Source of the DNA: Chloroflexi bacterium HGW-Chloroflexi-4
GTDB taxonomy: Bacteria > Chloroflexota > Anaerolineae > Anaerolineales > Anaerolineaceae
Reading direction: 5' to 3'
Length of the DNA stretch: 64,000 nucleotides
Assembly (NCBI GenBank): GCA_002840715.1
Contig: PHBW01000006.1
Span: 1-64,000, forward strand
Shown here: positions 12,538-23,942 of the stretch, in pieces
Position numbering within the stretch: position 1 is the first letter of the stretch
How the letters are laid out: each line of letters starts with the position of its first letter
Position numbers and translations under genes: made by a program
Notes under the pieces: model-generated
Database searches by the model: none
What the model was told of the DNA's origin: nothing
The model's input: the letters and a program-made list of their open reading frames with translations, nothing else

Positions 12538-12584
12538 GGACTAACTCCTCTGACGTAATTGGGAACAAACTGCATTAATCATAC

Positions 12585-12590
12585 TATAAT
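12585..12590 (+). promoter_or_regulatory. -10 element directly before a start codon
   Basis: A perfect TATAAT lies 7 bases before the ATG at 12598, with no Shine-Dalgarno sequence between them. Transcription starting 7 bases after the -10 would begin at the ATG itself, giving a leaderless message. The -35 is not clear. Confidence 0.5.
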
Positions 12591-12597
12591 TTGTTTC

Positions 12598-13353
12598 ATG
12601 TTCATGCAAAATCCTCGAAAGGTATTTTTATCGCCGCACCTGGATGACGCCGTCTATTCCTGCGGAGGACTCATCCATGAATTAGTCACAAAAGGATTCT
12701 CGGTCGAAGTTTGGACGATATTTACCGCCGATCCACCTGAAGGAAATCTTTCTACCTTTGCACAATCACTGCACGCGCGCTGGAAAGAAAAGTCCAACCC
12801 ATCTTGGATTCGGAGGGAAGAGGATAAGCACGCACTCGATTTGTTGGGAGCTGCCTGCCGTCATCTCAGTTACCCTGATTGTATCTACCGGCGAAATGCT
12901 CAAACCAATGAACCCATCATTACAAAGGATGAAGATCTGTTTTCAAAAGATTACGTCATTGAAAATAATCTCATCCTCAATCTTTATAAAGAGTTACAAC
13001 TTCGTCTGCCGTTGAATGCCGATATTGTTTGTCCATTGAGCATGGGCGGTCATGTTGATCACCGGGTGACGAGGATGGCTGCGGAGCAGTTGAAAAGATC
13101 CCTGTGGTTCTATGCAGACTATCCTTATGCCGCCAAAGATCCATCCAGTGTCAATGATTTTCTTCCAGATCATGCCGAAGCTGAGGTTCAAGAATTCTCG
13201 CCTGCCGGGATTGATGCATGGCTGAAGGCGATCGCCTGCTATCCTTCTCAGACCAGTTCGTTTTGGAACTCGCTTGATGAAATGGATCAATCCGTCAGGG
13301 TTTACGCCAGCCTGCCGATCGGCCGCACATTGTGGTTTCACAAGATAAATTGA
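12598..13353 (+). CDS. PIG-L family N-acetylglucosaminyl deacetylase
   Basis: LmbE/PIG-L enzymes are zinc-dependent hydrolases that remove the N-acetyl group from GlcNAc-containing molecules. The metal and catalytic motif SPHLDD is at residues 12-17 (H14, D16, D17), and the third metal ligand is in GGHVDHR. The 251-residue length is normal. An upstream TTG at 12559 is in frame, but the promoter position and domain start favour the ATG at 12598; M604 (two codons on) is a possible alternative. It sits with a methyltransferase downstream and may modify the surface glycan. Confidence 0.85.
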   Translation: MFMQNPRKVFLSPHLDDAVYSCGGLIHELVTKGFSVEVWTIFTADPPEGNLSTFAQSLHARWKEKSNPSWIRREEDKHALDLLGAACRHLSYPDCIYRRNAQTNEPIITKDEDLFSKDYVIENNLILNLYKELQLRLPLNADIVCPLSMGGHVDHRVTRMAAEQLKRSLWFYADYPYAAKDPSSVNDFLPDHAEAEVQEFSPAGIDAWLKAIACYPSQTSSFWNSLDEMDQSVRVYASLPIGRTLWFHKIN

Positions 13354-13364
13354 TTGGAGTCAAT

Positions 13365-14180
13365 ATGGCAAAACACGACCTGTTAACCGAAGAAGAGTTC
13401 GCAGCTTATAAAGCCCCGGTCAGGGCGATTCAACAGCTCAATCATTTTGCTGCTTCAAAAGGAAAATCTGCGGAGCAGGTTAAAGTCTTGGATTGGGGTT
13501 GCGGACGCGGTCGTTTCGTCTTGAAACTACGCGAATTGGGTTTCGATGCCTATGGTGTGGATATTGACCCTGAGCCGGTGAATAACGGTCTGCCCTTGTT
13601 TGAAAAAAAAGGCTTTCAAAACAAACCGCTTTCAGTAATTTCTGCTGACGGTCGAACCACTTATGAAGACGGCTTCTTCGATTTTGTGATGACAGACAAC
13701 GTGCTTGAACACGTCAGTGACCTTGGCAAAGTGATAACTGAAGTAAACCGGTTAACAGCGAAAGACGGCGGCGGATATCATATTTTTCCAGCGCAAAGAC
13801 AGTTCATTGAAGGTCATTTGTTTATGCCCTTCGTCCATTGGCTGCCGCAGGGTGGGTTACGTAAGGCTGTCATCCGAAGCTGCGTCAAAAATGGAACCGA
13901 ACCGCACTGGACTGAAGTGGAAGATTCTGGAATCGAAGAAAAAACACAAGTCTATTATGATTACAGTACGGATCACATTTTCTACCGACCTTATAAGCAT
14001 TTAAAAAACCAGTTCAGCAATTGTGGATTTAAGGTGTCCTTCTTGAGTTTGCAGAATCCGACTGTGCAAAAACATAAAATACTCGGTCCGTTGGCCAGAT
14101 TCGATCTTACCAAATCTGTAATTAATTGGTTGGTATTAACCTTCAAGCAGGTTGAATTGGTAACCAAGCGCATAGATTAA
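13365..14180 (+). CDS. Class I SAM-dependent methyltransferase
   Basis: The 271-residue protein has the SAM-binding motif I VLDWGCGRGRFVLKLRELG, followed by the acidic loop AYGVDIDPEP and the motif DNVLEHVSDL, typical of Methyltransf_11/23 enzymes. GGAG lies before the ATG at 13365, 11 bases after the deacetylase stop. It may methylate a sugar in the glycan pathway; the substrate is unknown. The C-terminal third has aromatic residues and no membrane segment. Confidence 0.85.
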   Translation: MAKHDLLTEEEFAAYKAPVRAIQQLNHFAASKGKSAEQVKVLDWGCGRGRFVLKLRELGFDAYGVDIDPEPVNNGLPLFEKKGFQNKPLSVISADGRTTYEDGFFDFVMTDNVLEHVSDLGKVITEVNRLTAKDGGGYHIFPAQRQFIEGHLFMPFVHWLPQGGLRKAVIRSCVKNGTEPHWTEVEDSGIEEKTQVYYDYSTDHIFYRPYKHLKNQFSNCGFKVSFLSLQNPTVQKHKILGPLARFDLTKSVINWLVLTFKQVELVTKRID

Positions 14181-14229: not shown

Positions 14230-14478
14230 ATGATGGAACGGAAATATTGGGCTGATTGGGCGCAATCCTTGCAACAGAAAAGGCTGACTGGCCTGGTGGT
14301 AACTCTATTGGATGGTGCCGGACCCCTCAAAATTCTTTTATCGCAGGTATTGATGGGATTTTTACCGTTATTTGGACAACCTCGTGACAGTTCCTGGCAT
14401 TCTTTTGCACAGATGTTGGAAGATGCTACGGAATGCCGGTCTTTCACGACCTATCTGCTTGAGGAGAAAAATTCGTGA
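14230..14478 (+). CDS. Small protein, 82 aa, first gene of the unknown cluster
   Basis: I do not recognise a family. The product starts MMERKYWADWAQSLQQ and has one moderately hydrophobic stretch (LTGLVVTLLDGAGPLKILLS), but no clear signal peptide. The Trp-rich start and the amphipathic middle suggest a small adaptor or membrane-surface protein. Its stop overlaps the GTG of the next gene by four bases (GTGA), so it is translationally coupled to a membrane protein. A -10 element just before the ATG marks it as the start of the operon. Confidence 0.6.
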   Translation: MMERKYWADWAQSLQQKRLTGLVVTLLDGAGPLKILLSQVLMGFLPLFGQPRDSSWHSFAQMLEDATECRSFTTYLLEEKNS

Positions 14479-15230
14479 GTCCTTATGAACCTTTGATCGG
14501 AGCAGTTGTATTTTTGGTCTTTTCCGGTCTCGTCCTCTTATTCTCTTCAAAAAAAATAAGAACAAAATTCCCTCCCGTATTTCGCAAATTATCGGCTGCA
14601 CAAAAACTTCGCAGGGCTATTGGTCTTGCCGTCGAAGATGGCAGCCGAATTCATGTGTCGTTGGGTAACAGTAGCATGATTGACCCGGCGAATGCTTCTG
14701 CACTGGCCGGTTTGAGTACATTAAGCCGAATCGGTCAATTAGCCTCCACCAGCGACCTGCCTCCCATGTGCACCAGTGGCAGTGGCGATCTGCAAATCCT
14801 CAGCCAGGATGTGCTGCGGGGCAGTGCCTCAGACACGCACACCCTCAGCCAGTTTGATCCGGTTCTGGCACGTATGACCGGCGTCACACCTTTTTCGTAT
14901 GCTCTTGGTGCAATCGAATCCTCGCAAGATTCGGGCACCAGCGCCTATGTGTTAATGGGTGATTTCGGCCCTGAAGCCGGTTTATTATTGGACGGTGCCG
15001 AAAATCAGGGCGCCTACAAACTGGCGGGAAGCAACTCGTTAATTGCTCAATCCATCTTTTTTGCAGTGGCCGATGACACTTTAATCGGTGAAGAAATGTT
15101 TGCAATGCCGGCTTACCTGGGTTCACAAGCAGTACACCAGGCCAGCCTTCGCGTTCAAGATATTCTGCGATTTCTCATCGTTCTTATTTTATTGGGAGCG
15201 GTGGTCTCTAGTTTGGCAGGGTGGTTATGA
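14475..15230 (+). CDS. Membrane-anchored protein of unknown function (DUF6754-like)
   Basis: The 251-residue product starts at a GTG overlapping the previous stop. It has a transmembrane helix at about residues 5-25 and another near the C terminus (FLIVLILLGAVVSSLAGWL), with a soluble middle that is rich in Ser, Ala and Gly. The middle has an ordered look, with GLAVEDGSRIHVSLGNSSM and SYALGAIESS segments. I recall similar proteins in Chloroflexota under a DUF6754 label, but cannot verify that here. Short overlaps tie it to genes on both sides. No catalytic motif was recognised. Confidence 0.7.
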   Translation: MSPYEPLIGAVVFLVFSGLVLLFSSKKIRTKFPPVFRKLSAAQKLRRAIGLAVEDGSRIHVSLGNSSMIDPANASALAGLSTLSRIGQLASTSDLPPMCTSGSGDLQILSQDVLRGSASDTHTLSQFDPVLARMTGVTPFSYALGAIESSQDSGTSAYVLMGDFGPEAGLLLDGAENQGAYKLAGSNSLIAQSIFFAVADDTLIGEEMFAMPAYLGSQAVHQASLRVQDILRFLIVLILLGAVVSSLAGWL

Positions 15231-15847
15231 AATCTCCGTTATCAATGTTGGTTGCTGTCCTAAGCGGTTTACTCGTCCTGGCAGGGTATTTCTTCCCGTT
15301 TCCAGCGTTAATTGCAATTCGCACACCCATGTTGGATTGGGCGGTCACTCTGGCCGGCATTGCGGGTCTTGTGGCGATCATCAATCTGATGGTCGGGGTA
15401 CATTTGAAACGCCTGCGTGAACCAGGTTCCAAACGTTTTTTCAGTATAGTAGTGATCATTTCCTTTTTGATGGTGGCTGTTTTTGGTTTCTATTTGGGTC
15501 CAGCAGATCAAAAATTCCAGAGGGTTGTCACTGCCATTCAAACCCCCATTGAAACTAGTTTGATGGCGTTGTTGGCCATCACGTTGACGTACTCAAGTTT
15601 GAAGATGCTTCAGCGGCAGCGCAACTGGATGGGATTTGTGTTCTTTCTCAGCGTCATCCTCTTTTTGGTGATAAATAGCGGCATTCTAGCTTTTTCTGCC
15701 GAAATTCCAGTACTTCAAGATTTGCTTTCAGGTTTTCATCAAATTCCTGCAGCAGGTGCGCGGGGTATTTTGTTAGGCATTGCCCTCGGCAGTTTAGCCG
15801 CAGGTGTTCGCATATTAATTGGTTCTGATAAACCTTACAGCGGATGA
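15227..15847 (+). CDS. Multispanning membrane protein, 206 aa
   Basis: About six hydrophobic helices cover most of the length, starting MKSPLSMLVAVLSGLLVLAG. Short polar loops include LKRLREPGSKR and LKMLQRQRNW. The start at 15227 overlaps the previous stop as ATGA, and the next gene overlaps in the same way. No transporter or enzyme motif is recognised. The strict overlap with its neighbours suggests a membrane complex made in fixed proportion. Confidence 0.75.
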   Translation: MKSPLSMLVAVLSGLLVLAGYFFPFPALIAIRTPMLDWAVTLAGIAGLVAIINLMVGVHLKRLREPGSKRFFSIVVIISFLMVAVFGFYLGPADQKFQRVVTAIQTPIETSLMALLAITLTYSSLKMLQRQRNWMGFVFFLSVILFLVINSGILAFSAEIPVLQDLLSGFHQIPAAGARGILLGIALGSLAAGVRILIGSDKPYSG

Positions 15848-18132
15848 GCATGGCCGAAAATATTTGTCCTATATGTGAACGACCTAATGACCCCAGTGCT
15901 GAACGCTGCTGGTATTGTCAGGCTGAATTAGCCTCCGGCGAACAACCAACACCCGTAAACGGTACGGATTGGTTAAATGGTTTGCGTGAAGAATCAGAAC
16001 AAGTTACCGATGTGGAAACACCTGCTGAAACTGGTGAACTTGAGAAACCCGAAGAAATTCCTGATTGGCTGGCGCGTATCCGCACTCGCGAGCAACTGGA
16101 ACGTGAAGCTCAAGCCAACACTGAGTCTGCCCAAACTGAACCCGTTGTTGCCGGGAAAAAAGAAGAACTCCCAGATTGGCTTAAAGAAATTAAAGCTGGT
16201 TTTTCAGGCAAAAAATCAGAATCTGAACAAGATGATTCAGCCCCCGAATCCTTTTCGCCATTAGCTACGTCAACTGCTGCTGATCAAAAACCACTTGCTG
16301 TTGGTCAGGACCAAAATGAGGATACCGACGAATGGTTAAGCAGATTGGCAGCCTGGAAGCCCACTGATGCAGAAAGCCAGACTGTGGATGAGGGTCAGGA
16401 TGCTGTTGATTTTGACACTTCAGAACCTGAAATACCGCTTACACCCATGGAGACACCCCCTAAACCTCAATTTGATATGGATTCTTTGGCTGCGTTAAAC
16501 CAGGCCGAGTTTCGACCTTTTGAATCCAAACGTGGCAACGGTTGGCAAAAACTTAACACGGATGAACTTGATGCCGATCAACAGGATGAACCACAACCTG
16601 AAAAACAACTATCCTTTGATGACTTAAGCCCTGCAGAAGAAGAACTGGCGCCTGCCAATTTTGATATTAACGCCCTGCGTGAAACAATCGCGGTCCAACA
16701 TACCGATCCTGATTTCTTTGCTGAAAAAGTAACTCCTGACGCGTCTGATGCGTCGGATGAAGATGATCTGTTGGAGGATGACTTTCAGGATTTGAATTTG
16801 GCGGGTGTCGAAAATACAGCAGTTGCCTCACATGAAGAGTCGATTTTTTTGGAGATAAAATCTGAACCACAACCTGGGGACTTGACTTCATCACCATTCG
16901 TACCTGATGATCTGCCTGATTGGCTGGCAACAGCAAAGCTTGAGAAACATGAAAAACGATCCAATGAACCGATCTCTGATGAACTGGATGCCGGTAAGCT
17001 GGAAGCCACTCTGGATAAAGGCAACTTGCCTGCATGGCTGCAGGCAGCCCGCATTCCGACCCCAGATGCCGATGGACTTTATGATTCGCGTAAAGGTGAA
17101 ACCAGTGAATCAGGTCTGCTGGCTGGAATATCCGGCACACTGCAAACGCCGAGCTTTGGGATGGATATCAGGAAGCCAGTTGGTTATGGTTCTGCTTTAA
17201 AGGTGTCTGAACGTCAAAAACAGAGTGCCAATCTATTTGCCAACCTGGTCGATGAAACTTTCGATGATAATGATATTAGTCTTCCAAAAAAGTCAAAAAA
17301 CCGGCGCATGATTTGGCGTTTAGGGCTGGCATTCGCTCTTTTGTTGGCGGTTTTTCTTTCATCAAACATCCTTGCCCCATTCATTATTCAACCGGCGCTT
17401 TTCCCTCCTGAAGTCGTATCTGTGTATGACCAGGTGGATGCTCTCTCTTTGGATAAGCCAGTGTTATTGACAAGTGATTTTGAGGCAGCGGTTGCCGGAG
17501 AATTATCCTGGAGTTCGCAAGCATTACTTGAGCACCTGATGAATAGAAACATGAATCTGGTGATCATATCCAGCAATCCTTCTGGCTCAACCCTGATGAC
17601 ACAGTTGATAAATAACGCTGCCAAAAACGTTCAAGGTTTTGATGTTTCTACTCATGTTATCAACCTTGGCTACCTGCCAGGTGGGGCTACCGGAGTGAAA
17701 TTGCTGGCGGAAAATCCACGCGCGGCCATGCCATATACGCATAATCTTGATGCCGCCTGGAATTCACCAATTCTTTATACAGTTTACTCGTTGAGTGATT
17801 TTGGCGCCGTGGTTGTCTTGAGCGACAAATCCGAAAGTTCCCGTGCCTGGGTGGAACAAATCCGACCAGCGTTGGGTGCCACACCGTTGATGTTTGTAAT
17901 CAGTGCACAGGTGGCTCCGCTGCTGCAACCCTATTATCAAAGCGGGCAGGTGTCTGGATATGTTGCCGGTTTTTATGGCAGTCTGGCTTATGAACAGATG
18001 CTTCAGCAAACCAGCAAATCGCTTTCACACCTGGGTGCATTTCAATCTGCCATGCTTCTGGTCGTGGTCTTGATCCTGGTGAGCGGTGTGGTTGCGCTGA
18101 TCCGTCCGGCACGTACAGAAAGAAAAGGATAA
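15844..18132 (+). CDS. Zinc-ribbon membrane protein with repeated DWL motifs
   Basis: The 762-residue protein begins with a zinc ribbon, CPIC at about residues 8-11 and CWYC about 13 further on. A long acidic, low-complexity cytoplasmic part (to about residue 470) carries six spaced Trp-Leu motifs: DWLNGL, DWLARI, DWLKEI, EWLSRL, DWLATA and AWLQAA. Then come a membrane helix (about 485-510), a folded external domain of about 220 residues, and a C-terminal helix ending in basic residues. ATGA overlap joins it to the previous gene. I do not recognise the external domain. The Trp-Leu motifs look like docking sites for a partner, which is inference. Confidence 0.75.
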   Translation: MSMAENICPICERPNDPSAERCWYCQAELASGEQPTPVNGTDWLNGLREESEQVTDVETPAETGELEKPEEIPDWLARIRTREQLEREAQANTESAQTEPVVAGKKEELPDWLKEIKAGFSGKKSESEQDDSAPESFSPLATSTAADQKPLAVGQDQNEDTDEWLSRLAAWKPTDAESQTVDEGQDAVDFDTSEPEIPLTPMETPPKPQFDMDSLAALNQAEFRPFESKRGNGWQKLNTDELDADQQDEPQPEKQLSFDDLSPAEEELAPANFDINALRETIAVQHTDPDFFAEKVTPDASDASDEDDLLEDDFQDLNLAGVENTAVASHEESIFLEIKSEPQPGDLTSSPFVPDDLPDWLATAKLEKHEKRSNEPISDELDAGKLEATLDKGNLPAWLQAARIPTPDADGLYDSRKGETSESGLLAGISGTLQTPSFGMDIRKPVGYGSALKVSERQKQSANLFANLVDETFDDNDISLPKKSKNRRMIWRLGLAFALLLAVFLSSNILAPFIIQPALFPPEVVSVYDQVDALSLDKPVLLTSDFEAAVAGELSWSSQALLEHLMNRNMNLVIISSNPSGSTLMTQLINNAAKNVQGFDVSTHVINLGYLPGGATGVKLLAENPRAAMPYTHNLDAAWNSPILYTVYSLSDFGAVVVLSDKSESSRAWVEQIRPALGATPLMFVISAQVAPLLQPYYQSGQVSGYVAGFYGSLAYEQMLQQTSKSLSHLGAFQSAMLLVVVLILVSGVVALIRPARTERKG

Positions 18133-18138
18133 TTCACC

Positions 18139-18813
18139 ATGCCGACGCTTTCTGCTGATCTACTCTGGATGTTTGTCAGTTTTATCCTCACACTTATGGT
18201 TTTTAGCTACCTTTTTGGTGATAATGCCTTGTTCCGATTTGTTCCTGCATTGTTCATAGGTGCAACCACTGGATATATGTTCGTGATCGTGGTTTTTCAG
18301 GTGGTGCTGCCCAGGTTGGTTGCTCCCATCCTCAATGGCTCGGTTATCACTCTGATTCCGATAATTCTTTCAGGGTTGCTGCTCATGAAGGTGTCGCCCA
18401 AACTGTCAAAATTTGGCAATATTTCAATGGCCTATCTGGTGGGCACTGGTGCTGCTGTTGCCATCGGCGGCGCAATTCTGGGTACCTTGTTTGGACAGAT
18501 CAAAGGCACATTAACCGCTTTTGATTCTTTACAGCATGCAACCGGTACGACTCCACTCTTCCTCATTCTTGAAGGAACTTTCATGTTGGTGGGCACCATT
18601 GCCACACTGGTTTATTTCAATTTTGGCGCGAAAAACACTGCACAAAAAACTGCAAAACGCGGATGGCTCAGTTCCGCTTTTGCCTGGATTGGACAATTTT
18701 TTATCGCCATTACTCTGGGTGCGGTTTTCGCAGGAGTATTGACCACTGCCATCACGGCCTTGGTCGAACGATCAGACTTCATTCTTCAATCCATCAATAC
18801 CTTGTTGCGATAA
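18139..18813 (+). CDS. Multispanning membrane protein, 224 aa
   Basis: Five or six hydrophobic helices are visible, with Gly/Ala-rich packing in the third and fourth (VGTGAAVAIGGAILGTLFG). The N-terminal part begins MPTLSADLLWMFVSFILTLM. It follows the zinc-ribbon gene after six bases and precedes the ASKHA ATPase gene by nine, with AGGA before the next ATG. No named family is recognised. The layout suggests a channel-like or scaffold part of the cluster's membrane complex. Confidence 0.72.
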   Translation: MPTLSADLLWMFVSFILTLMVFSYLFGDNALFRFVPALFIGATTGYMFVIVVFQVVLPRLVAPILNGSVITLIPIILSGLLLMKVSPKLSKFGNISMAYLVGTGAAVAIGGAILGTLFGQIKGTLTAFDSLQHATGTTPLFLILEGTFMLVGTIATLVYFNFGAKNTAQKTAKRGWLSSAFAWIGQFFIAITLGAVFAGVLTTAITALVERSDFILQSINTLLR

Positions 18814-18822
18814 TAGGAATTT

Positions 18823-20547
18823 ATGGCCACGCTATTGACTGATGTTAATTCGGTATTAGGACTTGAAATTGGCTCAGTTCAAACACGTGCTGTGCTTTTT
18901 GATGTGGTTGAAGAAGCTTACCAATTTCTTGCTTCAGGCAGCGCCCCCACCACTTGCGGTGAACCCACCTTTGATGTAATGCCGGGTGTGATTGCTGCGA
19001 TCCGTGACCTGCAAGAGATCACTGGGCGATTCTTCTTAGATCTTAATAACAAGTTGATTATTCCAAGCCACGGCGGGGTGGAGGGGGTTGATCGTTTGCT
19101 GATCACACTATCCTGGGGTCCAGACGTGGACGTGGTCACTTATGGCTTGTTGAATGAGCTCTCCCTCGAAACGGCGAACAGGCTTGCCAGATCTCTGCCG
19201 CTCAATATTGCCGACAGTTTCAGTATTAATGACAGACGCTCAACGCAAGTTCAAATGGATGCGCTTTTGGCGGCCAAACCCCGAATATTGATCTTTGCTG
19301 GTGGTTCTGACCGCGGCGCCACCCGCACAGTTAGTCGTATTGCAGGAAAAATAGCAACTTCGCTTCACTTATTTAAAGCAGAAGATCGACCCAAGGTCTT
19401 GTTTTGCGGCAATCGGGCCATGGCACGCAGGGTGAAAGAGGTTCTCGAAAAAGAAACCACATACGCCAGCACGACAAACATTCGACCTGAAATTGAAAAC
19501 GAAGACCTAATACAGGCATCATTTGATCTGAATCAATTGGTCATAGATGAAAAAATGCATTCGATCAATGGGCTTGAGCGTATTGCTGCTTTTTCAAATG
19601 AGAAACCGCAGTTAACCGGCATTGGTTTTCAGCGTGTGATCCGTTTTCTTGGAAAACAATACGATCCGCTGCGTAAAGTGTTGGGCATCGATCTTGGCTC
19701 TGCACATGTGACTGCCTCATATGCCGGTTATCAAGAAAGCCAGCAGATCACCTTGCCCATCGGCACCGGTTATGGTCTCGAAAAAGCATTGGAGCAATCC
19801 AAATTCTCTGATTTTGAAAAATGGCTGCCAGAGGCATTGTCTGAATCGCAGGTAATGGATTATCTCTGGCAGAAAACCTTATTCCCAAATAGTTTGCCAG
19901 TCAGCGAAACCGACCTGATGATTGAACTTGCCTATGCCAGGCATCTTCTGTGCATGACTATGCGAGAACTTGAACAACACGCAGATTTGGTGTCCAGAAG
20001 TTTTGAACCCATTTTGGTAGGCGGATCCATATTAACCCATGCAGCCACGCCTTGGCAGATGTTAACCACACTCCTTGACGGCATTCAACCGGTTGGTATT
20101 TCGCCATTGGTGGTTGATAAGCACGGGATTCTCTCGTTATTAGGCGCAGCAGCTAAAACAAACCCGCTGCTGCCTGTGCAAGTGCTTGAAAGTACAGCTT
20201 TTATCAGCCTGGCTACCGTGGTTTCTGTTGAAAGCAAGGGTAAACCAGGAACTGTGATCTTAAAAGCCCGGCTGCAAACCGTCAGTGGTAAGGTGCGTGA
20301 ACTTGTGGTTAAACAGGGTGAGCTTTCATCACTGCCGCTTGCTTTTGGTGAAACAGGTATGCTGCTGCTAAAACCTGAGGCTAAACTCAGTATTTCGGAT
20401 ATAGAGGTTGGTAAAGACCCAATAAAGGTGAGAGGCGGTGTGTGCGGTCTCGTCTTCGACACCCGCGGACGCCCGCTTGAACTGCCAAAAGATCAAATTC
20501 ATCGGCTGGCTATGCTTGATCGTTGGTCAAAACCTGCCAATCAATAA
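18823..20547 (+). CDS. MutL / 'glutamate mutase L'-like double ASKHA ATPase
   Basis: The 574-residue protein carries two ASKHA-type halves. The first begins GLEIGSVQTRAVLFDV at about residue 14 and the second begins GIDLGSAHVTASYAG near 290; each shows the phosphate-1 motif. Further nucleotide-fold segments are ILIFAGGSDRG, VLFCGNRAM and ILVGGSILTH. This pattern matches the MutL family found beside B12-dependent glutamate mutases in clostridia. No mutase, B12-binding or amino-acid gene is nearby, so the role here is probably different, for example as the ATPase of a membrane or envelope complex. The function is inferred. Confidence 0.8.
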   Translation: MATLLTDVNSVLGLEIGSVQTRAVLFDVVEEAYQFLASGSAPTTCGEPTFDVMPGVIAAIRDLQEITGRFFLDLNNKLIIPSHGGVEGVDRLLITLSWGPDVDVVTYGLLNELSLETANRLARSLPLNIADSFSINDRRSTQVQMDALLAAKPRILIFAGGSDRGATRTVSRIAGKIATSLHLFKAEDRPKVLFCGNRAMARRVKEVLEKETTYASTTNIRPEIENEDLIQASFDLNQLVIDEKMHSINGLERIAAFSNEKPQLTGIGFQRVIRFLGKQYDPLRKVLGIDLGSAHVTASYAGYQESQQITLPIGTGYGLEKALEQSKFSDFEKWLPEALSESQVMDYLWQKTLFPNSLPVSETDLMIELAYARHLLCMTMRELEQHADLVSRSFEPILVGGSILTHAATPWQMLTTLLDGIQPVGISPLVVDKHGILSLLGAAAKTNPLLPVQVLESTAFISLATVVSVESKGKPGTVILKARLQTVSGKVRELVVKQGELSSLPLAFGETGMLLLKPEAKLSISDIEVGKDPIKVRGGVCGLVFDTRGRPLELPKDQIHRLAMLDRWSKPANQ

Positions 20548-20587
20548 AACTGGTATGTTTATTGCAACATAAGAGCCAGGTGACATT

Positions 20588-21661
20588 ATGCAAAATCCGG
20601 TGACTCAAATCAATCCTCTGGTTAAAATCCGCAGAAATCGTGTTCTGCCGGTGGCTGGTATGGTATTGGTGCGAGTTGGACAAAAAGTTGCCCCCGGGGA
20701 GATTCTGGCCGAAACGCTAATCCCGACCAAACATGTGATCGTAGATGTGTTGAATACGCTGGGATTGAAAAATGCTGACGAAGCTGAAAAACTGATTGAC
20801 CGTCAGGCTGGTGATCTGGTCGATAAACACGACATCATCGCGGAAACAGGCGGATTATTCTCTCGCGTCATCCGCGCACCCATGCCAGGCAAGATCATTT
20901 CGATCAAAAATGGCCAGGTGCTGCTCGAAGTCGAATCCCGAAAAGTTGTGGTTCAATCGGGTTATGCCGGTCAGGTGGTCGAAATATTGAATGACCGCGG
21001 CGCAGTGGTTGAAACCAACGGCACTTTGATCCAGGGTGTATGGGGAAATGGTCTGATCGGTTTTGGACCATTTATAGTTGATTCTCAATCCATTGATCAG
21101 GAACTCACCCCCGCATCGCTCAGCCTCAACACCCGCGGCACCATTTTGGCAGCCTCATGGTGTGAACAGGAAGAAAGTCTTAACCTGGCAGGAAGTATCC
21201 CAATTGCCGGTTTGGTGCTTGGTAGCATGAGCCCAAGGTTAATCCCGTGCGCGCTTAAACAAAATTACCCCATTCTGCTGCTTGAAGGTTTTGGCCGGGT
21301 AGCGATTAATGACCAGGCAAAAAATGTTCTGATTGCCAGTGAGCAAAAAGAGATGAGCCTGAACGCGGTCAAATGGGATCATTACAGCGGCATCCGCCCC
21401 GAGATTAGCATTGCACTGCAATCAAGCGGTGCATTGGAAGTTGAAAGTGCCGAATTTGCCGAAGGCCAAAAAGTAAGAGTGCATAGTTCTGCATATGCAG
21501 GCAAAACTGGCGTGTTGACTGTCATCAACCCGGGAAAGACCACTCTGCCCAATGGATTGAGGACTGCAACTGCTTCTGTTCTATTTCAGAATAATGAAAA
21601 AACGGTCGTACCGTTTTCGAATTTTGATATTATTGATGTGGAAGATCGATTCCCCGGATAA
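20588..21661 (+). CDS. Barrel-sandwich / KOW-like protein of unknown function
   Basis: The 357-residue soluble protein has short beta-rich repeats around Pro-Gly turns: VRVGQKVAPGEILAE near the N terminus, RAPMPGKIISIKNGQVLLEV near the middle, and a C-terminal EGQKVRVHSSAYAGKTGVL stretch that looks like a KOW-type motif. The first two resemble biotinyl/lipoyl-like or RnfC-type barrel-sandwich hybrids, but no modifiable lysine motif (MKM or DKA) is obvious. It follows the ATPase gene after 40 bases with an AGGTGA-type ribosome binding site. I cannot assign a function. Confidence 0.7.
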   Translation: MQNPVTQINPLVKIRRNRVLPVAGMVLVRVGQKVAPGEILAETLIPTKHVIVDVLNTLGLKNADEAEKLIDRQAGDLVDKHDIIAETGGLFSRVIRAPMPGKIISIKNGQVLLEVESRKVVVQSGYAGQVVEILNDRGAVVETNGTLIQGVWGNGLIGFGPFIVDSQSIDQELTPASLSLNTRGTILAASWCEQEESLNLAGSIPIAGLVLGSMSPRLIPCALKQNYPILLLEGFGRVAINDQAKNVLIASEQKEMSLNAVKWDHYSGIRPEISIALQSSGALEVESAEFAEGQKVRVHSSAYAGKTGVLTVINPGKTTLPNGLRTATASVLFQNNEKTVVPFSNFDIIDVEDRFPG

Positions 21662-21682
21662 CTTGTTTCAGGAGGATATACC

Positions 21683-22282
21683 ATGGCACTAAATAATTTT
21701 GATGAGGATCAATTTGACCAGGAAAGTTTCGGCGGCGGAGATTATGAACCAGAGCCACCCAAACGAAGAGGGAATCGCACCTTCCTGATTGCCATCGCCA
21801 TCGTCGGCATCATCTTTGTGATTGCCTTAATATTGCTGCTGCTTGTGGCGCCTAGATTGTTGGCAAACCAACGATTAGCCCAGCAGGAACAGGCTGCCCA
21901 GATCAATGCAGCCAACACAGCCACCGCCATGTATGCTACTTCAATGGCGCAACTGGCACAAGCCACCAAAACACCAACCAAAATGCCAGTTGCAGCGGCA
22001 GATGGAGCAGCCCCCACCAAGACGCCCGTTGTGGTGATTCAACAAAACACGCCCATGGGTGCAGGCGGATCGGGCCTTTCGGCCTCTGAATTGGCTACCG
22101 TTTCAGCTTTGCAAACCGAAATGGCAGGCCGTGGCGTGGCTGGAACCCCTGGCGCAACTTCCACGGCGCTACCCTCCACCGGTTTCGCAGATGAAGTGGG
22201 TCTTCCTATGATGGCTGGTTTGGCAATCATTCTGGTGGCGGTTATAGTTCTCAGCCGCAGACTCAGAATGAACACCAGATAA
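21683..22282 (+). CDS. Membrane-anchored surface protein with LPSTG sorting signal
   Basis: AGGAGG precedes the ATG at 21683. The 199-residue product has an acidic N-terminal cytoplasmic part, a basic patch (PPKRRGNR) and one strong helix at about residues 32-58. A Thr/Ala/Pro-rich external stalk follows. The C terminus is a standard sortase sorting signal: LPSTG, a hydrophobic helix (LPMMAGLAIILVAVIVL) and a basic tail RRLRMNTR. If it is processed by a sortase, the external part would be attached to the wall or another protein. No sortase gene is in the window, so the helix may simply be an anchor. Confidence 0.75.
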   Translation: MALNNFDEDQFDQESFGGGDYEPEPPKRRGNRTFLIAIAIVGIIFVIALILLLLVAPRLLANQRLAQQEQAAQINAANTATAMYATSMAQLAQATKTPTKMPVAAADGAAPTKTPVVVIQQNTPMGAGGSGLSASELATVSALQTEMAGRGVAGTPGATSTALPSTGFADEVGLPMMAGLAIILVAVIVLSRRLRMNTR

Positions 22283-22416: not shown

Positions 22417-23877
22417 TTACGAAACGCTGGCAGCAACGGCTTCACCGTATTTGAGTAGTTCCTTGACCATTTCTTCCGAGCGGCCTTCTGCATAAACACG
22501 AAGCACTGGTTCGGTGCCAGAGGGTCTGATCAGCAGCCATGAGTCATCAGCAAAGATGTATTTCACGCCGTCCATCTTTGAAATTTCAACGATGCTTTCG
22601 CCGCCAATTTCAGCAGGATGGTCATTTTCAAGTTTTTCAACCATGACTTTCTTTTCAACCGGATGTTTGAGACGCAGATCGGTGCGTTCATAATAAACCG
22701 GACCGACTTCTTTCTGCAGGTCTTCAACCATTTCAAACAGGGAGGTTTTGGCCATTGCGACCATTTCAATGATCAGCAAGCCCATTAAAATACCGTCGCC
22801 TTCGGGGATGTGTCCGCTGAAGGAGATGCCGCCAGATTCTTCACCGCCGATCAATACATTTTCTTTCATCATGTAATCAGAGATGTGGTTGAATCCGACC
22901 GGGGTTTCGCGCAAAGGAAGGTTGTATTTCTTGGCCAAGCGGTCGATCATGCGCGTAGTCGATACTGTGCGCACGACGGTGCCGGTCATGCCGCGTTTTT
23001 CAACGAGGTGGCGAAGCGCCAAAGCCATGATTTTGTGTGGATCAACAAAGTTGCCGTGTTCATCCATGGCGCCGATGCGGTCTGCATCACCGTCTGTGGC
23101 CACGCCAAAACAGCCCATGCCAGCGCCTATGGCGCCAGCCAGTGGACGCAGATATGCGCCGATCGGCTCGGGATGTACGCCGCCGAAACCGGGGTTCATT
23201 TCGCCGCGGATCTCGGCAATTTCACAGCCAGAGCCTTGCAGAATGCCTTTGATCACGCCGCGACCTGAACCGAACATTGAATCCACTACAAAGTTCTGGG
23301 GGTTTTCGGCGATGGCATCAAAGTTAATCAAAGTGCGTAGGTGTTCATAATAAGCAGGGATGGGGTTAAATTTATAGATCAGGTTTTGGGCGCGAGCCTG
23401 GTCAAAATCCATCAGGTTGGGGCCGCGACCTTGCTGTTCGTTGTCGTTTAAGTAAACTTCAACCCGGCGACATTGTTCGGGCAGGGCAGAGCCGCCGTAA
23501 GCTGATTTGAGTTTCACACCGTTATAACGCGGCGCATTATGAGATGCGGTGATCATCACCCCGCCGATGGCATTAAGATTGCGCACCGCGTGTGAGATAA
23601 CCGGGGTGGGGGCGTCAGATTGGGCCAGGTAGACGGTAAATCCATTGGCGGCCAGCACACGTGCAACCTCTGCCGCATAGCGGTCTGATAAAAAGCGGGT
23701 ATCAAACCCAACAACCATCTTGCGTGGATCGGGTGTATGTTCCAGCACGGTTCCGTTCGTCCAGGTGTCTGAAGCCACTGCATCTGCGATGGCTTGCGAA
23801 AGCTGCCTCAGATTATGAAATGTAAAGGTGTCTGAGATGACTGCTCGCCAGCCGTCTGTTCCAAAGTGGATCGTCAT
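22417..23877 (-). CDS. Phosphoglucomutase / phosphomannomutase family enzyme
   Basis: The enzyme interconverts 1- and 6-phosphohexoses. All four signature loops are visible in the 486-residue product: the phosphoserine loop TASHNAPRYN with S112, the metal loop ATDGDADRIG, the sugar loop GEESGG and the phosphate-binding loop RPSGTEP. GGAG lies before the ATG at 23877; an upstream in-frame extension to 23937 lacks that support and runs into the neighbouring terminator. It would supply hexose-1-phosphate for nucleotide sugars used by the glycan genes. The GEESGG loop suits glucose-type rather than glucosamine-type mutases, but the substrate is not certain. Confidence 0.9.
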   Translation of the reverse strand: MTIHFGTDGWRAVISDTFTFHNLRQLSQAIADAVASDTWTNGTVLEHTPDPRKMVVGFDTRFLSDRYAAEVARVLAANGFTVYLAQSDAPTPVISHAVRNLNAIGGVMITASHNAPRYNGVKLKSAYGGSALPEQCRRVEVYLNDNEQQGRGPNLMDFDQARAQNLIYKFNPIPAYYEHLRTLINFDAIAENPQNFVVDSMFGSGRGVIKGILQGSGCEIAEIRGEMNPGFGGVHPEPIGAYLRPLAGAIGAGMGCFGVATDGDADRIGAMDEHGNFVDPHKIMALALRHLVEKRGMTGTVVRTVSTTRMIDRLAKKYNLPLRETPVGFNHISDYMMKENVLIGGEESGGISFSGHIPEGDGILMGLLIIEMVAMAKTSLFEMVEDLQKEVGPVYYERTDLRLKHPVEKKVMVEKLENDHPAEIGGESIVEISKMDGVKYIFADDSWLLIRPSGTEPVLRVYAEGRSEEMVKELLKYGEAVAASVS

Positions 23878-23904
23878 TGATCTTCTCCAATAATTTAAAA
23901 ATAA

Positions 23905-23933
23905 TGAAACCTGAACGAAAAAACCAGGTTTCA
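23905..23933 (-). terminator. Intrinsic terminator after the DUF389 gene
   Basis: On the minus strand TGAAACCTG pairs with CAGGTTTCA around an 11-base loop, followed by a T-rich tail. It ends the DUF389 transcript just upstream of the phosphohexomutase start. Confidence 0.75.
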
Positions 23934-23942
23934 GCAATAATT

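Follow-up and report, generated by a model that had tools for sequence, protein, structure and literature searches.

Our analyses show that eight adjacent genes of Chloroflexi bacterium HGW-Chloroflexi-4, occupying positions 14230–22282 of the first 64,000 nucleotides of contig PHBW01000006.1 (this whole stretch being the window hereafter), are almost certainly one version of a real, conserved system. It is found in Chloroflexota, in about one in four of the Planctomycetota sampled (among them anammox organisms), in several candidate phyla and in archaea, and has neither a name nor an assigned function. The association of its genes is far beyond chance. Genes g1 to g7 fall into two modules: a membrane cassette composed of g2, g3, g4 and g5 (module A), and a cytoplasmic module composed of g1, g6 and g7 (module B), in which g6 is a predicted ATPase of the ASKHA type. 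An initial annotation, made from the letters of the window, had proposed an undescribed cluster coupling an ASKHA ATPase to membrane proteins, and gene order across phyla bears this out; absent from it were the division into two modules, the cassettes present in many copies, the apparent fusion in g4 and the DUF6754 domain of g2.

Reading the window confirmed the eight open reading frames (ORFs) at the positions annotated, all on one strand:

g1, 14230..14478, plus strand: small amphipathic protein of 82 amino acids (aa).
g2, 14475..15230, plus strand: DUF6754 protein (PF20539, 81.5 bits); transmembrane (TM) helix at residues 5–24, Rossmann-like alpha/beta domain at about 37–215, predicted to be cytoplasmic, and TM helix at 219–247.
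g3, 15227..15847, plus strand: polytopic membrane protein with 5–6 TM helices and no Pfam family; the first in-frame start is GTG at 15221.
g4, 15844..18132, plus strand: N-terminal zinc ribbon and disordered [IL]PxWL region (predicted cytoplasmic), TM helix, predicted extracytoplasmic Rossmann-like domain and C-terminal TM helix.
g5, 18139..18813, plus strand: polytopic membrane protein with about 6 TM helices, no Pfam family and an FSYLxGDN motif.
g6, 18823..20547, plus strand: member of the MutL superfamily (PF13941, E 1.2e-46) and predicted ASKHA ATPase; a DxRGRP domain of about 110 aa forms its C-terminus.
g7, 20588..21661, plus strand: soluble protein, probably the adaptor of g6, with a barrel-sandwich-hybrid (RnfC_N/biotin-lipoyl-like) fold and a KOW domain at its C-terminus.
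g8, 21683..22282, plus strand: N-terminal TM helix, Thr/Pro-rich outer linker, LPSTGFADEVGLP motif, second TM helix and basic tail; accessory protein of Chloroflexota only.

The g1/g2 junction is a GTGA overlap and the g3/g4 junction an ATGA overlap, while that of g2 and g3 is ATGA if g3 starts at ATG 15227 and a 10-bp overlap if it starts at GTG 15221. Downstream, gaps of 6, 9, 40 and 21 bases separate g4/g5, g5/g6, g6/g7 and g7/g8 respectively, and the layout first described, of four genes joined by overlaps followed by gaps of 6–40 bases, stands if the ATG start of g3 is accepted. Pfam gave no family above cut-off for g1, g3, g4, g5 or g8, and comparison of the cluster with PHROGs gave no match.

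DUF6754 was detected in 37 of the 41 genomes searched, counting the window's own, and the order g1–g8 is kept on one strand in 36 loci read from the same taxonomic order as the window, 35 of these 36 relatives having a hidden Markov model match to g1 in the corresponding position. Gaps in this order correspond to contig ends, to places where an ORF overlap hid a gene from the filter, and to single divergent members that went undetected (e.g., L028). The same order is kept in most Chloroflexota lineages carrying the cluster; in genomes presumed to belong to Chloroflexaceae and Herpetosiphonaceae g1–g6 are kept, with g7 and g8 undetected. A scan of contigs for g6 produced 79 named loci, including those of Thermanaerothrix daxensis and Oscillochloris, isolated hosts that make the system testable. 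Outside the Chloroflexota it reached Planctomycetota (Scalindua, Brocadiaceae), Armatimonadota, Eisenbacteria, a metagenome-assembled genome (MAG) of Bacillota, Culexarchaeum, Thermoproteota and Bathyarchaeota. The initial proposal depended on gene order being conserved beyond this strain, and it is kept far outside it. In bacteria other than Chloroflexota the order is g1-g6-g7-g2-g3-g4-g5, g4 consists of the membrane half only, and g8 was not found in the loci read. There g1 encodes 105–139 aa with the consensus pA..fLEs..Pl.f.gsQ.m.ff.P, and it adjoins g6 in Planctomycetota and other phyla. Archaea have g6-g7, g5-g4 and isolated g2-g5 cassettes.

The modules are most clearly separated by copy number. 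A genome may contain many DUF6754 genes: 27 in one MAG (G223), seven in a Culexarchaeum genome (G217), seven in a second archaeal genome, likewise of Culexarchaeum type (G401), and six in each of G215 and G220. Wherever loci of multi-copy genomes were read, the duplicated unit was the entire four-gene cassette g2-g3-g4-g5, and close cassette pairs occur in Planctomycetota. Among the copies read, g2 sequences are 36–70% identical within G223 and 33–49% within G217; because identity within a genome is only 33–70%, these copies are old paralogs and not assembly duplicates. PF13941 genes, the family to which g6 belongs, are few, with one each in G217 and G401 and seven matches in G223 that include fragments and divergent sequences, and module B is usually single-copy.

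The two modules are inherited together. DUF6754 is present in 31 of 119 sampled planctomycete genomes, and a MutL-type gene occurs in 27 of the 30 positives tested versus 1 of the 14 negatives tested (Fisher p 1.4e-7). It is present in 37 of 151 sampled Chloroflexota genomes, where 36 of the 37 positives have a MutL-type gene versus 27 of the 114 negatives (Fisher p 1.8e-16), both p values being optimistic since the genomes are related. This co-occurrence is not merely shared synteny, because modules A and B lie far apart in many planctomycete genomes. We consider it likely that a single shared engine serves exchangeable cassettes.

The ATPase matches PF13941 (MutL) at 159.9 bits, above the gathering cut-off and across model positions 2–448 of 450, and the initial annotation was right to compare it with MutL. 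It was mistaken in calling the protein a double ASKHA ATPase; a single MutL match covers residues 12–457, the two DxGS motifs are the halves of one ASKHA fold, and the C-terminal domain follows. Judged by its sequence, g6 is not GlmL, the glutamate mutase accessory protein. The GlmL model (NF040745) has a cut-off of 475 bits, against which g6 scores 61.5 in the window, 236 in Brocadiaceae and 211 in Culexarchaeum. Three GlmL controls from Chloroflexota are 466–470 aa long, two scoring 600 and 610 bits and the third (G091) 438. The D.RGRP motif is present in 136 of 148 g6 ORFs, some of the remainder being fragments, and in none of the three GlmL proteins; in the tree, GlmL forms a 100/100 clade on a long branch that excludes all g6. 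The controls adjoin GlmE in both G087 loci (L205, L206), in L205 also GlmS, and a GlmS-like gene in G091. No glutamate mutase E or S gene was seen beside g6 in the clusters read, in agreement with the earlier view that no mutase gene explains the cluster, and in the relatives read the ATPase is not found mainly beside B12-dependent mutases. The protein is usually misnamed ‘glutamate mutase L’, and the Pfam label ‘MutL protein’ misleads metabolic reconstructions. Read by eye, the loci of one Anaerolineales clade (L128, L133, L135, L140, L148, L149, L152, L157) have methylmalonyl-CoA mutase C-terminal/small-subunit-like and MeaB-like genes in divergent orientation upstream of the cluster, and some g6 copies of Bathyarchaeota (L234, L235) have MttB-like, corrinoid-protein and UroD-like methyltransferase genes nearby; these are the only links to B12.

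Among the membrane subunits, g2 exceeds the DUF6754 gathering cut-off (27 bits) and its planctomycete counterpart reaches 395 bits. No mention of DUF6754, PF13941, PF20539, IPR006230 or TIGR01319 was found in the open-access literature, a scope that excludes subscription papers. AlphaFold predicts for g2 (pLDDT 95.7), and for the last 283 aa of g4 (pLDDT 93.2), a TM helix, a Rossmann-like domain and a second TM helix. The best VIA matches of both domains are Sir2, RCK, SIS and CODH epsilon folds, g2 reaching Z 12.1 against Sir2, 10.9 against the RCK domain of KtrA and 10.7 against GmhA; they indicate a fold class and no function. By positive-inside charge bias, 131 of 152 homologs would have the g2 domain in the cytoplasm and 10 the reverse, whereas 127 of 135 would have the g4 domain outside it and 3 the reverse; the two are thus predicted to lie on opposite sides of the membrane. 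Foldseek against the PDB returned no match for g2 below E 1e-3, and sequence profiles of PDB entries gave no credible relative of g2, g3, the C-terminal part of g4, g5 or g6. Profile comparison gave nothing to make sequence paralogs of g3 and g5, or of the g2 and g4 domains despite their common architecture. We did not trust eIF2B, the sole and weak Foldseek match of the g4 C-terminal part (E 6e-4, TM-score 0.28), and disregarded a weak match of g3 to a cytochrome-c-assembly protein (E 0.02).

The N-terminal half of g4 has a zinc ribbon and [IL]PxWL motifs at residues 72, 109, 162, 357 and 395, the density of the motif in g4 being 9.6 per 1000 aa versus a background of 0.96, or tenfold. A separate zinc-ribbon/LPxWL gene followed by g6-g7 occurs in Chloroflexota families that gave no DUF6754 match, Ktedonobacteria-like ones among them, and its product has a zinc ribbon, many LPxWL motifs and a basic, Trp/Phe-rich C-terminal tail. 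Since zinc ribbon and LPxWL motifs are common to this separate protein and the N-terminal half of g4, we infer that a scaffold half and a membrane half, the latter a cassette subunit, have been fused in the window's g4. The LPxWL motifs may dock g6 or g7. What appears to be a reduced system, with the zinc-ribbon/LPxWL protein and g6 and no detectable DUF6754, is seen at L198–L201, L204, L211 and L212, with g7 also present in all but L198 as called. In the Herpetosiphon-like locus L086, the C-terminus of g6 is an LPxWL motif and basic tail resembling the scaffold protein, and L092 has the tail only.

The g7 protein matches biotin-lipoyl and RnfC_N-like families in Pfam, and SPT5 and NusG KOW domains by profile. 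It falls short of an RnfC, scoring 22.8 bits on RnfC_N against a cut-off of 25.6 and, with only two Cys, lacking iron-sulfur cluster motifs. It is the probable adaptor of g6, and the two are fused into one ORF in G220 (locus L244). In a Bacillota MAG (L237:5207-14122), two tandem g6-g7 pairs are flanked by FtsX-like ABC permease genes, where the engine possibly has a separate role.

Several neighbours were recorded outside the cluster. In anammox-type Planctomycetota (L122:5494-9615; also L113, L116, L119 and L123), a gene with a SpoIVB S55 peptidase domain and a beta-propeller gene lie directly 5' of g1. In the window, a phosphoglucomutase/phosphomannomutase gene is convergent with the cluster (22417-23937, minus strand), and 37 loci have a neighbour of its family; just upstream (12559-14180) lie genes for a PIG-L-like deacetylase and a SAM methyltransferase, and a deacetylase-like gene stands beside the cluster in 14 loci. 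We set these mutase, deacetylase and methyltransferase genes aside as parts of the system, for they look like local synteny.

A model of the system can begin from its module structure, co-inheritance, gene order, two fold classes and predicted topology, which the genomes and predicted structures provide directly. Reactivases and Hsp70-type ASKHA proteins switch between ATP- and ADP-bound shapes. Module B would be cytoplasmic, formed by the g6 ATPase, its adaptor g7 and the small, membrane-associated g1; module A would hold the g2 domain inside and the g4 domain outside, with polytopic g3 and g5 between them. By alternating between its ATP- and ADP-bound shapes, g6 would act through g7 to drive the cassette between states, and the g4 and g2 domains would pass between them a small molecule or a signal that reports on it. 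Ligands would vary from cassette to cassette, and this would account for the 7–27 diverged cassettes and few engines of some genomes. In the window lineage, the fused zinc-ribbon/LPxWL scaffold of g4 may tie the engine to the cassette, and g8 may add a wall- or surface-facing strap. We hold this full reading, of ATP-driven transport or transfer by cassettes, tentatively, at somewhat less than an even chance. It is doubtful, if possible, that bacteria and archaea share here a new class of energy-coupled machine, driven neither by an ABC unit nor by ions but by an ASKHA ATPase, whose exchangeable cassettes of four proteins present matching Rossmann-type domains on the two sides of the membrane; in biochemical terms the system may yet turn out to belong to a known class. 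Should the reading of a shared engine hold, no earlier machine for ASKHA-driven transfer across a membrane is known to us.

A number of points weigh against transport by this route. An ASKHA ATPase is not known to us as the driver of any transporter, and transport, ligand binding, ATP hydrolysis and complex formation are predictions only. Cassette neighbours in the loci read are not consistently related to transport or to substrates, and the Rossmann-like matches are generic (best g2 Foldseek E 0.027, VIA Z no higher than 12). Ktedonobacteria-like genomes have g6-g7 without a cassette, which implies that the engine there has another role or an undetected partner. Evidence from outside the Chloroflexota comes largely from MAGs.

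The strongest competitor to the transport reading, though rather unlikely, has g6-g7 as an ATPase of repair or activation and g2-g5 as its client, a membrane enzyme whose Rossmann domains would hold a cofactor such as a nucleotide. GlmL, DdrA and RACo are repair or activation ATPases for B12 enzymes, and the place of g6 in the MutL superfamily, the CODH epsilon subunits among the VIA matches and the corrinoid, UroD-type, mutase-like and MeaB-like neighbours would all suit such a role. However, those B12 neighbours stand on the opposite strand, occur at only a handful of loci and belong to lineages where genes of this kind abound, the membrane subunits have no metal-ligand signature (g3 and g5 of the window have no Cys), and true GlmL sits beside GlmE/GlmS genes in a clade of its own. 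It is unlikely that the cassette is instead a trans-membrane ligand sensor, with g4 outside and an RCK-like g2 inside, whose state g6-g7 reads or resets to control envelope or membrane physiology. RCK domains of K+ channels (MthK, KtrA, TrkA) are among the top structural matches of both domains and diverged, multi-copy cassettes would suit many ligands, but the likeness to RCK is of a general Rossmann kind and no output domain, transcription factor or kinase gene recurs beside the cassettes read.

We regard as very unlikely a machine that builds the envelope and has g8 attached to the wall by sortase. The g8 protein does have the features of a sortase substrate, with LPSTG near its C-terminal end, a TM helix, a basic tail and sortases in the genome (eight matches in the window's own, G000; 70 of 101 Chloroflexota genomes positive), and it scores 17.8 bits, a weak match, on the NCBIfam LPXTG-anchor model TIGR01167 (cut-off 15.9) and 13.2, below 20, on Pfam Gram_pos_anchor. 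The motif seen by the initial annotation is real but not strict: LPxTG occurs in 43 of 69 homologs, and the others have LPDAG, LPQGG, LPNSG and similar forms, several with the Thr replaced, or no clear motif. Moreover, G043 keeps the cluster through g7, yet has no sortase match and no g8 was found in it. The suggested role in building or sensing at the cell envelope is not supported in its wall and sortase sense, given that the LPxTG gene is seen only in Chloroflexota and the core in archaea and anammox planctomycetes as well; g8 is a Chloroflexota add-on, not core. Finally, that g6 is an ordinary GlmL accessory protein with unrelated neighbours, as the PF13941 match and weak GlmL-model scores might suggest, is refuted on membership by its 61–236 bits versus 475, extra DxRGRP domain, separate clade, lack of glutamate mutase neighbours and co-inheritance with DUF6754.

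Compared with known systems, g6 shares with the GlmL/MutL accessory proteins (PF13941, NF040745, TIGR01319) the ASKHA core motifs and a full-length Pfam MutL match, and differs in length (about 575–740 aa versus 466–470) and in its C-terminal domain, whereas g2 belongs by sequence to the DUF6754 proteins (PF20539), a family without assigned function. The g7 protein resembles both the N-terminal barrel-sandwich of RnfC/NqrA and the KOW domains of NusG/SPT5, although the cluster has no iron-sulfur or flavin redox partners and the domain order and middle domain of g7 differ. The actin-like scaffolds GspL, PilM and FtsA, of secretion and division complexes, are likewise ASKHA-type proteins beside membrane proteins, but the cluster has no pilus, secretin or division genes and g6 aligns to MutL. 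In ECF transporters, one energising unit is common to many substrate-binding S-components; no ABC, EcfT or S-component Pfam match was found in the eight window proteins, and the likeness is one of logic only, in that few cytoplasmic ATPases accompany many diverged membrane partners, the ATPase here being of the ASKHA and not the ABC type, and the partner a four-gene cassette with two Rossmann-like domains.

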